A DNA stretch of 64,000 nucleotides from assembly GCF_000346505.1 (NCBI RefSeq), contig NZ_ANOH01000169.1, forward strand, positions 1 through 64,000, written 5' to 3'. The stretch is from Aporhodopirellula sallentina SM41. GTDB taxonomy: Bacteria > Planctomycetota > Planctomycetia > Pirellulales > Pirellulaceae. Position numbers and translations under genes: made by a program. Position 1 is the stretch's first letter; each line of letters opens with the position of its first letter. Shown here piece by piece: positions 21,797-35,658 of the stretch. The notes under the pieces are model-generated. The model was not told the origin of the DNA, did not search any database, and worked only from the letters and a program-made list of their open reading frames with translations.

Positions 21797-21872
21797 GCTA
21801 GAATGCGGGCAACCGAGGCTGAGGCTTCGCGTTTCCTCACTGCTTTCTCGCCTCCCCGAACTCCCGCCTTTT

Positions 21873-21998
21873 GCTGAGCCCCCGCCCGATGAAGAGCCCC
21901 CGCCTGATGAAGAGCCCCCGCCTGATGAAGAGCCCCCGCCTGATGAAGAGCCCCCGCCTGATGAAGAGCCCCCGCCTGATGAAGAGCCCCCGCCTGAT
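21873..21998 (+). repeat. Seven 18-nt tandem units at the start of the DUF3500 gene
   Basis: Six exact copies of GAAGAGCCCCCGCCTGAT (21891-21998) follow one degenerate copy (21873-21890). The ATG formed at each unit junction is in frame with the DUF3500 protein, at 21889, 21907, 21925, 21943, 21961, 21979 and 21997. The unit has a weak GAAGAG about 10 nt before the next ATG. Confidence 0.92.
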
Positions 21999-23118
21999 GA
22001 AAAAAACACCGCGGAATCAATCCGTTCCTCTGTCTCGTTTGATCGCGATCATTCTCGTTGGGGTGATCGGTGTCGCCGTTGTCGGATTGAAGCTCGGTCA
22101 GACGCCCGCGGAACAGATGCAAACGTTTGCCGAGGCCTACCTCGAGACGCTCGACGAGTCGCAACGCGGGCTCACGATGAAGGACTTCGATTCACCCACT
22201 CGCGTCGGATGGCACTTCATCCCGAAGGACGAACGCAAAGGTTTGATGATCGGCGACATGAACGATGCCCAGCGGACCGCGGCGTTGCGTTTGTTGCGTG
22301 CCGCGTTGAGCGAAGCGGGGTACGGCAAAGTGAACCGGATCATGTTGCTCGAGGAAGTTCTCAATAAGATGGAGCAAGGCAAAGGTCGTTGGGAACGAAA
22401 TCCTCAGCGGTACTTCGTGACTTTGTTCGGCGACCCGAGCGGCCGAGCGGGTGACGGTGGCAGTACAGCGGACGGTGACGAAAGCGAATCCCGGGATGAT
22501 CGATGGGGGCTGAGCTTCGAAGGTCACCACCTCTCGCTCAATTTTGTCTGTCGCGGCAATTCGGTACTCGACAGTACGCCTCAGTTCCTTGCTTCGAATC
22601 CCGCGACGGTGATGCAGGAAACAACCGTGACGCTCGGAAAGGGGACAGCCGTTCTAAGTCGTGAAGAGCAGCTCGGTTTTAAACTCATTCATTCCATGTC
22701 CGAGGAACAGAAAGACGCCGCGGTGATCGCCAGCGAGGCGCCTTCGGAAGTCCGGTTCGCAGGAAAGCCGCAGCCCGAGGTGACCAAGCCGGTAGGAATC
22801 TCTTACGCGAAACTCAACCAGTCGCAGAAAGATCTATTGCAGGACCTCGTAACGACCTACACCGACATCGCAGCCGAGCGGGTTGCGCAAGAGCGACGGG
22901 CAAAGATCGAAAGTGACGGATGGGAGGGCGTGCGATTCGCGTGGGCAGGTGCGTTGGAACCCGGCATCGGTCACTACTACCGTGTTACCGGAAAGAGTTT
23001 TCTGATCGAGTTTGTCAACACGCAGTCCGATCCGGCTGGCAATCCGGCGAATCACATACACTGTTTCTACCGCGATTTGACAGGCGACTTTGATATCCCG
23101 GTCGATCCCCAAAACTGA
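21997..23118 (+). CDS. DUF3500-type protein with N-terminal membrane anchor
   Basis: Protein of 373 residues from the ATG at 21997 (MKKTPRNQSVPLSRLIAIIL), with a basic start and a hydrophobic helix like a signal anchor. The extracytoplasmic part contains FHFIP-like text (WHFIPKDERKGLMIGDMN) and near the C-terminus FAWAGALEPGIGHYYRVTG followed by SFLIEFVNTQ and ANHIHCFYRDLTGDF. These are the core motifs of DUF3500, whose role is unknown. Upstream the frame stays open through the 18-nt array, with six more in-frame ATGs that would add SPRLMK repeats; the last ATG is preferred because it gives a clean signal. A possible -10 (TAGAAT, 21799-21804) overlaps the truB end. Confidence 0.82.
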   Translation: MKKTPRNQSVPLSRLIAIILVGVIGVAVVGLKLGQTPAEQMQTFAEAYLETLDESQRGLTMKDFDSPTRVGWHFIPKDERKGLMIGDMNDAQRTAALRLLRAALSEAGYGKVNRIMLLEEVLNKMEQGKGRWERNPQRYFVTLFGDPSGRAGDGGSTADGDESESRDDRWGLSFEGHHLSLNFVCRGNSVLDSTPQFLASNPATVMQETTVTLGKGTAVLSREEQLGFKLIHSMSEEQKDAAVIASEAPSEVRFAGKPQPEVTKPVGISYAKLNQSQKDLLQDLVTTYTDIAAERVAQERRAKIESDGWEGVRFAWAGALEPGIGHYYRVTGKSFLIEFVNTQSDPAGNPANHIHCFYRDLTGDFDIPVDPQN

Positions 23119-32869: not shown

Positions 32870-34003
32870 ATGAGTGTTGTAGGCGAAGGTTCCGAAGCTG
32901 AAATCCAGGCTGCTGCGTCAGCGGCAAGAGACCGGCTCAACGAGCACACGCTCAAGACGGTCCACTGGCACTTCAGCGACGACACCGGTTGTCCATTCTG
33001 GCTAGAAAAGAAAGCGGAGCTGAATTTCGATCCCTTGAAGGACGTCAAATCCTTTGACGATCTCAAGAAGTTCCCTCATTTCGAGGATGAATGGCTCCGA
33101 GGCGGCCCGATCCGACGCTGGGTGCCCAAAGGGCATGCGGGAAAGCCCGTTTACGTGTTCGAGACCGGAGGCACGACAGGCATACCGAAGAGCCGGATGG
33201 TGATCGAGGATCACTGGACCGACTACGAATTGTTCAGCGACACGCTCCCGGACAAATACTTTCCCCGCGGGGCGAACTGGTTGATGCTCGGACCTAGTGG
33301 CCCGCGTCGCTTGCGGTTGGCGGTCGAGCACTTGGCCCAACATCGCGATGGCATTTGCTTCTGCATCGACCTCGATCCACGTTGGGTCGTGAAATTGATC
33401 AAGAAGGGATGGATGGAGCATCTCGAGGAATACAAGAAGCACTGCATCGACCAAGCGGTCACGATTTTGACTGCGGGGCATGATGTGAAGTGCATGTTTG
33501 CGACACCAAAACTTCTCGAGTCGCTAAGTGAAGCGTTGGAAGAGAAAGGCACGAGCCTGGCGGAAGTCGGCATCACCGGGATCTTTTCAGGTGGCACTGA
33601 GTTTACATCTCAGTGGACGAGGTTCTGTGTCGAAGAAATGTTGGGCGGTTCTCCTGAAGAGAGCGGCATTTACATGACCCCGACATATGGCAACACGCTG
33701 ATGGGGCTCGCATGCAGCAAACCGATCACTGCCGCAGACGGTTATAAGATTGCCTACTACGCACCTCAGCCCCGTGCGGTCACCGAAGTAGTAACGTTTG
33801 ATGACTACGATCAAGTCGTCGGCTATGGCGAGACAGGACGCGTCAAATTGTACACGTTGACCGATGAGTTTTTCGTCCCCGGCTTCATGGAGCGAGACGA
33901 GGGAGAACGCGAACGCCCGTTTCAAACCTACCCCTGGGACGGTGTGAGCGGCGTGCGCCCGTTCCATGAACTCGCCAGCGCGACAACAGTTGGTGTCTAC
34001 TAG
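32870..34003 (+). CDS. Adenylate-forming enzyme (LuxE/PaaK-like)
   Basis: Member of the AMP-dependent synthetase superfamily, 377 residues, cytoplasmic. The AMP-binding P-loop ETGGTTGIPKSRM (98-110) is a clear match. GITGIFSGGTEFTSQWTRFC and YMTPTYGNTLMGLACSK form the adenine-contact region, and GETGRVKLYTLTDEFFVPGF the motif before the C-terminal lid. The lid domain is short, so the enzyme may hand its acyl-AMP directly to a partner. The length is close to that of LuxE (acyl-protein synthetase), and the gene is followed by an aldehyde-dehydrogenase-like gene of LuxC-like length. Substrate (fatty or aryl acid) is unknown. Confidence 0.75.
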   Translation: MSVVGEGSEAEIQAAASAARDRLNEHTLKTVHWHFSDDTGCPFWLEKKAELNFDPLKDVKSFDDLKKFPHFEDEWLRGGPIRRWVPKGHAGKPVYVFETGGTTGIPKSRMVIEDHWTDYELFSDTLPDKYFPRGANWLMLGPSGPRRLRLAVEHLAQHRDGICFCIDLDPRWVVKLIKKGWMEHLEEYKKHCIDQAVTILTAGHDVKCMFATPKLLESLSEALEEKGTSLAEVGITGIFSGGTEFTSQWTRFCVEEMLGGSPEESGIYMTPTYGNTLMGLACSKPITAADGYKIAYYAPQPRAVTEVVTFDDYDQVVGYGETGRVKLYTLTDEFFVPGFMERDEGERERPFQTYPWDGVSGVRPFHELASATTVGVY

Positions 34004-34218
34004 GAACGCATTGGGAAGTCGCCTTGATACATCGCAGTAGGAGTCGCCCGGTCTTTTCAAGGTCGGGAGGCGGATGTTCAGGCTAACCGCTCCCAAACGG
34101 TTCCTCCATTTCGACTATCGACTGCCCAGCTACCATTGATCGTTAACGGTAGGGATCGTCGATCCAATTCAGCTTTCACTATCAACCCACCCATTCCGAT
34201 ACCCGCCAGATTCATCTC

Positions 34219-35658
34219 ATGATTACCCTTCATCCGCTTCGTTGGGGCAAACAATACGAATCCCTTGAGTTCAACGATGTCGTTCACTTCGACACAGGCG
34301 AACCGATTGCCCGGATCGGAACCGTCGGCGGAGGAATCGTTGCCCGTGACATGAGGAAAGCTCATCTCGCTCGAGAAGCCCTCTTGGAGGTGCCGACTGA
34401 CGAGTTGATCGCAATGGGGAAGAAAGCGGCAGACCTATTCGAGAACGCCACGTTGAGCGTCGGTGATTCTCAGCAGAGTGTCGATGATTTCGTTCACCAG
34501 CAATCGGCGAGCACGGGATTGCCCGAGCACATGTGTCGATCCAACATGGCGAAGAACAGTTTCGTACTGAGCCGGATGGATGAGATCTTGCAGTGTCTTA
34601 CCCGTGGGTTGGATCTCTCCATTTTATCCAAGGGGTATGGAGATGAAGGCCGTGGGGTGACGGTCAGTTATCAAGCTCAAACGCCTGTTCTCGGCGCGAT
34701 CCTTCCGAACAACTCACCTGGTGTTCATACGCTTTGGCTGCCTGCCGTCGCGTTGCAAATCGGGCTGGCGTTGAAGCCTGGGTCACAGGAGCCATGGACA
34801 CCCTATCGCATGGTGTCGGCGTTCATGGAAGCCGGAGTCCCCGCGTCCGCTTTCGGATTGTATCCCGGAGGACACGATGCCGGTGGAGCGATTATGACCA
34901 AGGCGCCGCGTAGCATGATTTTCGGAAGTGCTCAGACGGTTGCACAGCATTCCGGCAATCCGCGTGTGCAAGCTCATGGACCAGGCTTTTCCAAGATTCT
35001 TCTTGGTGATGACATTGTTGATGATTGGGAGATGTATCTCGACGTGATGGTCGAGAGCGTCCTGAGTAACTCGGGCCGCAGTTGCATCAATTGTTCGGGC
35101 ATCTGGGCGAGTCGGCATACTCAGGAAATCGCAGCCGCAATCGCGGAAAAGATCGGCCCTGTCGATGTGTTGCCGCCCGCCGATCCCAACGCACAATTGG
35201 CTGCGTTCACGGTGCCGGCGATGGCGACAGGAACTTGGTCGATGGTCGAGCAGGACCTTGCGGAAAGCGGTGTTACCGACATGACCTCGCAGTTCGGTGA
35301 AAAGCTGATCGAACGCGAGCATTGTGCGTATCTGCGACCGATGGTGGTGCATGCCGATTCACCGGACCGCGCGGTAGCCTCCAAAGAGTATATGTTCCCA
35401 TTTGTGAGCGTCGTCGAGTGTCCGCAAGATGAAATGCTTCGCCGGATTGGACCTACGTTGGTCGGGACCGTCATCACATCCGACGAGAAACTCATCACCG
35501 GTGCGAGCCGATGCGTCGATATCGATCGGCTGAATATCGGCCCATTGCCAACGAATCGTTTGAATTGGTTGCAACCACACGAAGGGAATATCATTGATTT
35601 TCTCTTCCGCAACCGAGCGTACCAAATCGCGCCGATGCCCACCGCGGCGTCGACTTAA
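34219..35658 (+). CDS. Aldehyde dehydrogenase-like (acyl reductase) protein
   Basis: Protein of 479 residues with the NAD(P)-dependent aldehyde dehydrogenase fold. PVLGAILPNNSPGVHTLWLP and ALQIGLALKPGSQEPWTPYR form the cofactor-binding part, and SNSGRSCINCSGIWASRH carries the catalytic-type Cys289 with a second Cys292. The family's usual Glu general base cannot be identified with certainty. Together with the adenylate-forming enzyme 215 bp upstream it could reduce an activated carboxylic acid to an aldehyde, as LuxC does with LuxE. No luciferase (luxAB) is present. A classical aldehyde oxidation role is the alternative. Confidence 0.78.
   Translation: MITLHPLRWGKQYESLEFNDVVHFDTGEPIARIGTVGGGIVARDMRKAHLAREALLEVPTDELIAMGKKAADLFENATLSVGDSQQSVDDFVHQQSASTGLPEHMCRSNMAKNSFVLSRMDEILQCLTRGLDLSILSKGYGDEGRGVTVSYQAQTPVLGAILPNNSPGVHTLWLPAVALQIGLALKPGSQEPWTPYRMVSAFMEAGVPASAFGLYPGGHDAGGAIMTKAPRSMIFGSAQTVAQHSGNPRVQAHGPGFSKILLGDDIVDDWEMYLDVMVESVLSNSGRSCINCSGIWASRHTQEIAAAIAEKIGPVDVLPPADPNAQLAAFTVPAMATGTWSMVEQDLAESGVTDMTSQFGEKLIEREHCAYLRPMVVHADSPDRAVASKEYMFPFVSVVECPQDEMLRRIGPTLVGTVITSDEKLITGASRCVDIDRLNIGPLPTNRLNWLQPHEGNIIDFLFRNRAYQIAPMPTAAST

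Follow-up and report, generated by a model that had tools for sequence, protein, structure and literature searches.

A probable two-component aryl acid reductase of the EhpF/EhpG and GriC/GriD kind in the planctomycete Aporhodopirellula sallentina

The window considered here, that is, the whole stretch of 64,000 nucleotides from contig NZ_ANOH01000169.1 of Aporhodopirellula sallentina SM41, contains a pair of genes that very probably encode an aryl acid reductase. The two proteins would form a two-component ATP- and NAD(P)H-dependent aryl-carboxylic-acid reductase: the 377-aa protein would adenylate an aromatic acid, the acyl group would pass, directly or via a carrier, to Cys289 of the 479-aa protein, and the latter would reduce the Cys289-bound acyl group to the aldehyde. 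The likeliest acid would be a hydroxybenzoate made from chorismate by c13, a chorismate-lyase-like protein whose gene lies in another part of the genome, and the product would then be acted upon by an iron alcohol dehydrogenase and a HemN-like radical SAM protein (contigs C360 and C109, respectively). The chances that the substrate is indeed a hydroxybenzoate are about even, and we moderately favor the reading as a whole, in which a reductase of the EhpF/EhpG and GriC/GriD kind acts most likely on a chorismate-derived hydroxybenzoate, with the iron alcohol dehydrogenase and the radical SAM protein acting later. The route from chorismate via hydroxybenzoate and hydroxybenzaldehyde to a further product, including the reaction, the substrate, the order of steps and the end product, is what we infer from calculations, namely, from homology, active-site residues, co-occurrence and gene clusters shared by relatives.

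Both genes are located on the forward strand, start with ATG, and appear in the list of open reading frames exactly at the positions and with the sizes given in a preliminary description of this DNA. The gene of the predicted EhpF/GriC-type acyl-adenylating enzyme (AMP-binding, ANL superfamily) occupies positions 32870..34003 and encodes 377 aa; 215 bases separate it from the gene of the predicted EhpG/GriD-type acyl-thioester-reducing protein of the aldehyde dehydrogenase family (34219..35658, 479 aa). The classes to which that description had assigned them, an acyl-adenylate-forming enzyme and an aldehyde-dehydrogenase-like protein, hold in outline.

In particular, AMP-binding is the only family listed for the first protein at E<=1 in a search of the whole Pfam-A, with a weak score of 19.2 bits, below the cut-off of 29.9. 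In a phmmer search against PDB, EhpF (3hgu/3l2k) is matched with E 5e-40 (5.2e-40 for 3hgu_A) by residues 11-365 of 377, the next-best match being a 4-chlorobenzoyl CoA ligase with E 0.014. The protein is also about 31-35% identical to relatives encoded on plasmids of Streptomyces, haloarchaea, Burkholderia and E. coli. The predicted adenylate-binding loop, ETGGTTGIPK (residues 98-107, positions 33161..33190, forward strand), is seen in the sequence and in an alignment of 22 EhpF-like homologues (planctomycetes, together with plasmids of Streptomyces and E. coli), where E, G, G, G and P of ExGGTTGxPK are invariant, T, T and K are nearly so, and the YGNT motif is also invariant or nearly so. 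The full-length homology and the ANL nucleotide-binding loop argue for assigning the 377-aa protein to the EhpF type.

The only Pfam family listed for the second protein at E<=1 is Aldedh (72 bits). Its AF2 model has pLDDT 90.3, and all 50 solved structures listed as similar to it belong to the aldehyde dehydrogenase superfamily, with Z 34-35 over about 440 residues. The catalytic Cys289 (codon at 35083..35085, forward strand) is invariant across a 12-row alignment including AldA, GabD and EutE. In the same alignment the column of the canonical general-base Glu (ELGG), the residue responsible for water activation in oxidising aldehyde dehydrogenases, contains Glu in E. coli AldA and GabD, Ala in EutE and His253 in the window protein (codon at 34975..34977, forward strand), the comparison with these three enzymes being a sequence alignment at 15-19% identity. 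Retention of Cys289 together with loss of the general-base Glu fits a thioester-reducing enzyme. Hence, as modeled, the 479-aa protein has the aldehyde dehydrogenase fold with the catalytic Cys, and its apparent lack of the general base is consistent with the reducing rather than the hydrolysing type.

Two known systems resemble the pair. EhpF and EhpG are encoded in the D-alanylgriseoluteic acid cluster of Pantoea/Erwinia Eh1087. The likeness consists in the homology of the first protein to EhpF over the full length, and in the order of genes in the phenazine cluster of an E. coli plasmid, where a gene of the aldehyde dehydrogenase family directly follows an EhpF-type gene; however, the identity to this plasmid pair is about 32% for the first protein and 22-24% for the second, and no phenazine genes were noticed near the window pair. 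GriC and GriD (grixazone, Streptomyces griseus), to which the pair is likened by description, are described as a two-gene aryl acid reductase composed of an AMP-binding protein and a reductase, with 3-amino-4-hydroxybenzoate activated as acyl-AMP and then reduced to the aldehyde (PMC10179220).

Matches of both proteins lie side by side on plasmids of Streptomyces goshikiensis, Streptantibioticus, Burkholderia, E. coli and two haloarchaea; on a plasmid of Streptomyces sp. NBC_00998 they are separated by some 2 kb. Outside the PVC group, four bacterial relatives with annotated neighborhoods belong to chorismate-using clusters, which contain genes for DAHP synthase and for aminodeoxychorismate, anthranilate or isochorismate synthase, and two of them also have phenazine genes. 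One Streptomyces EhpF-like gene is found beside a polyketide synthase gene, with no aldehyde dehydrogenase in its incomplete gene table, a locus that counts against the reading favored here.

Of 40 genomes sampled from the window's own order (own genome included), 38 have the EhpF-like gene, and no such gene was found in one further genome of this order (G206). At cut-offs of at least 300 bits for the EhpF-like match and at least 300 bits for the EhpG-like match, strong homologues of both proteins occur in an identical set of 60 out of 294 Planctomycetota genomes (own included), leaving out 21 of 81 EhpF genomes (best match below 157 bits) and 118 of 178 genomes with aldehyde dehydrogenase matches (below 300 bits). 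Given these counts, the two reading frames are not chance ones. In these 60 genomes the pair is adjacent in 51 (gap below 2.5 kb), 4.8 kb apart in one and unlinked in eight, and EhpF precedes EhpG in every adjacent case. In one genome scored as unlinked (G074) a C-terminal piece of EhpF is located beside EhpG on one contig, so that this is probably a contig break, which would make 52 of 60 adjacent. Separation of the two genes in most relatives, named in the preliminary description as an observation that would speak against a pair, is thus not what is seen in the own phylum, and the EhpG-like gene is the partner of the EhpF-type gene. Second EhpF copies are found in G187, G156 and G172, and a fragmented one in G320.

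A scan of named genomes yielded at least 563 relatives, and the best 80 of these are mostly Verrucomicrobiota by title, the others being Planctomycetota and Armatimonadota. For these 80 loci, the fetched stretch contains EhpG near EhpF in 42 cases by clustering of reading frames and in 40 by tblastn. From the 40 tblastn-negative loci, 28 were taken for a whole-genome search (the other 12 had little downstream sequence), and 25 of them encode EhpG elsewhere, while three do not; linked controls L153 and L130 were also positive in this search. In 20 loci around such EhpG genes, there are iron alcohol dehydrogenases in six, FAA-hydrolase family proteins in three and sulfatase-like proteins (labeled by eye) in three. 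Among the loci around EhpG there is also one (L277) with the long operon described below, lacking EhpF. In two genomes of verrucomicrobial type an FAA-hydrolase family gene (Pfam, L281) adjoins EhpG (L280, 6800-7700; L281, 10837-11661). A separate, distant EhpF-like group (32-37% identity), seen in one family (f59), has no close EhpG (L101, 9022-10236; L102, 8777-10039), and in L101 its gene adjoins a gene of an MMPL-type exporter (Pfam).

When the neighbors encoded in the window and in 60 fetched loci (55 genomes in all) were clustered, the pair was seen to have recurrent companions. The strict-clustering neighbors are an iron alcohol dehydrogenase (27 of the 55 genomes), a HemN-like radical SAM protein (24), which does not reach the HemN, HutW or HemW cut-off, and a beta-propeller protein (24). 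Fewer genomes have c13, a flavin halogenase-like protein, a glycosyltransferase, a thioesterase, a PaaK-like ligase, an SSF symporter with a DUF3311-like protein, two more propellers and an ABC exporter. Three loci (L069, L079 and L085) contain the run EhpF, EhpG, iron alcohol dehydrogenase, propeller, radical SAM protein, c13, FAD protein, glycosyltransferase, thioesterase, and the order of the run is identical in two loci from named genomes (L130 and L205), with the propeller left unscored. In the source genome (8.19 Mb over 491 contigs) the parts are scattered, with the pair on C169, the radical SAM protein and propeller on C109, the iron alcohol dehydrogenase on C360 and c13 on C74.

Co-occurrence shows the same association. 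The HemN-like radical SAM protein is found in 58 of 60 EhpF genomes vs. one of 234 others (Fisher p 7e-58, kinship ignored), a count that leaves out G314 (236 bits), one of the 60 genomes with the radical SAM protein; for c13 the numbers are 43 of 60 vs. none of 234 (Fisher p 4e-38, kinship ignored). The sample spans 24 families with EhpF and 13 with c13.

Several arrangements in and around this gene set were observed in addition. In G187 the second EhpF gene is a part of the long operon (L059, 4645-12196), with the iron alcohol dehydrogenase gene directly next and no EhpG between them, and the EhpF-EhpG pair of this genome is on another contig. On C109 (L115, 194-4832) the radical SAM and propeller genes are divergent from a gene of a fused 3-dehydroquinase/shikimate dehydrogenase (Pfam). 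In several genomes the radical SAM gene is followed by genes of a GcvH-like lipoyl carrier and a ferredoxin-like protein (L234, 5848-8741; L108, 1116-2865).

We also considered whether the long operon is an aryl polyene or flexirubin cluster. Its genes encode a PaaK-like ligase (with FlxY among the weaker NCBIfam matches), a halogenase-like flavoprotein, a thioesterase, an ABC exporter and a glycosyltransferase. Neither a ketosynthase nor a carrier protein is seen among the recurrent families profiled.

The c13 protein reaches no Pfam family, but its profiles match PDB entry 2nwi (AF1396, DUF98), one with E 5e-4 and another with E 5e-3. The model of one relative's copy (pLDDT 91.6) is similar to 2nwi (Z 16.8, rmsd 2.2, 144 residues) and to UbiC 1g81 (Z 11.2, rmsd 3.2, 140 residues); the fold is shared by UTRA domains of GntR regulators, with Z up to 12.8, that is, between 2nwi and UbiC. 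Met, Arg, Leu and Glu of UbiC, which contact the product in the E. coli enzyme, are kept in the c13 alignment, Leu in all rows but one, and the copy from the source genome keeps all four in the alignment with UbiC. Hence c13 resembles the UbiC/DUF98 chorismate lyases in the fold and four aligned active-site residues, and differs from UbiC in being only about 22% identical and outside every Pfam family; going by the model, it appears to have the chorismate lyase fold and active site. The match in the source genome is weak (42.5 and 24.5 bits) and unlinked to the pair. Moreover, c13 was not detected in 17 of the 60 EhpF genomes. These points, together with the sharing of the fold with UTRA domains and the E of 5e-3 obtained with the second profile, count against the reading favored here.

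On C74 of the source genome (L220, 9621-14664) c13 is directly beside genes of a DUF116-polyprenyl synthetase fusion and a squalene-cyclase-like protein, all on one strand. Squalene-cyclase-like and DUF116-polyprenyl synthase genes are found beside c13 in genomes of the own order, and the latter gene (d2, E<=1e-40) accompanies EhpF in 50 of the 60 genomes and also occurs in 19 that lack EhpF. These 19 genomes, and the absence of d2 from 10 of the 60, weaken the isoprenoid link. As a tentative suggestion, on balance rather doubtful, Planctomycetes, Verrucomicrobia and their neighbors might share an undescribed pathway, in which a chorismate-derived hydroxybenzoate is converted to the aldehyde and the alcohol, altered by the HemN-like radical SAM protein and, in some members of the group, joined to an isoprenoid, yielding a new aromatic compound that could be a membrane lipid, a pigment or a redox carrier.

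The main alternative, which we consider unlikely, is that the pair reduces an acid other than hydroxybenzoate, imported by the Na+ symporter encoded upstream in relatives, while c13 supplies 4-hydroxybenzoate for tetrahydromethanopterin. Of 71 usable loci, 35 have a transporter gene (SSF in 26, MFS in 9) as the immediate upstream neighbor of EhpF, and an imported acid would also fit this arrangement. A related symporter gene directly precedes the pair on a haloarchaeal plasmid (L210, 6508-10566), where a sodium symporter is followed by EhpF-like and then EhpG-like genes and no aromatic genes are listed; the same order is seen in many planctomycete and verrucomicrobial loci. However, the chorismate-using clusters of the four annotated bacterial relatives mentioned above, with one relative not in such a cluster, argue against an imported acid.

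As for the second part of this alternative, 4-hydroxybenzoate is a methanopterin precursor, and MCH is a marker of tetrahydromethanopterin metabolism. MCH is present in 28 of the 294 genomes, 27 of which are EhpF-positive, and the low-scoring subtype of c13, to which the copy in the source genome belongs, coincides with MCH (27 of 29), being found in 27 of the 28 MCH genomes. In contrast, no MCH is found in any of the 14 genomes with high-scoring c13, and there c13 is always within 12 kb of the radical SAM gene; the same distance is observed in 14 of 28 genomes with low-scoring c13, which also speaks against the methanopterin alternative. Still, since low-scoring c13 tracks MCH and 4-hydroxybenzoate is such a precursor, c13 may serve the methanopterin route here and be connected with the pair indirectly, and its hydroxybenzoate may feed tetrahydromethanopterin instead in the window's lineage.

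It is quite improbable that the EhpF-like protein makes acyl-CoA and the EhpG-like protein is a CoA-acylating aldehyde dehydrogenase, the two working through free CoA rather than by direct transfer of the acyl group between them. CoA-acylating EutE likewise has no general-base Glu, in agreement with this scheme, but GriC/GriD are described with an acyl-AMP intermediate (PMC10179220). Moreover, the shared occurrence of the two genes fits a dedicated pair, though it is compatible with CoA as well.

LuxC/LuxE constitute a fatty acid reductase that works through acyl-AMP and reduction of an acyl-enzyme, and the two-component aryl acid reductase proposed here follows the same overall logic. The preliminary description had likened the two proteins to LuxE and LuxC. 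However, the window proteins match neither family's profile: no Lux profile is listed at E<=1 for either of them, the search of the whole Pfam-A with the first protein does not list the LuxE acyl-protein synthetase at E<=1, and LuxC (PF05893) has zero matches in the whole source genome, while the same search is positive in nine of 14 control genomes. Membership in LuxC/LuxE is rejected for both proteins on the grounds of these missing matches. On reading the lists of reading frames in the window, no luciferase gene was noticed. A LuxCE-like reduction of fatty acids to fatty aldehydes for lipid or other use is very improbable: the sizes and the adenylate and aldehyde dehydrogenase chemistry (Pfam AMP-binding, Aldedh) are similar, but the profiles do not match, the nearest solved relative is EhpF, and GriC/GriD work on an aryl acid (PMC10179220). 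As far as homology can tell, the earlier description seems right about the type of reaction, the acid-reducing pair being consistent with the full-length homology to EhpF and the resemblance to two-component carboxylic acid reductases, and wrong about the Lux family.

To our knowledge, the two-component aryl acid reductases known so far come from few antibiotic clusters. The presence of EhpF in almost all sampled genomes of the own order and the recurrence of the pair, with the same partner genes, in verrucomicrobial genomes point to a core or widespread function rather than to an occasional antibiotic. The pair itself belongs to a known kind of enzyme, and it is the conserved gene set around it that looks undescribed: no description of this set was found in the open-licence PMC literature as represented by titles and beginnings of abstracts. 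The pair gives a first predicted reaction for an uncharacterised pathway, and adds predicted new free-standing enzymes for making aryl aldehydes.

Elsewhere in the window, at positions 21871-22009, the start of an open reading frame consists of near-identical MKSPRL repeats, which appear as a serine-glycine repeat in another frame.
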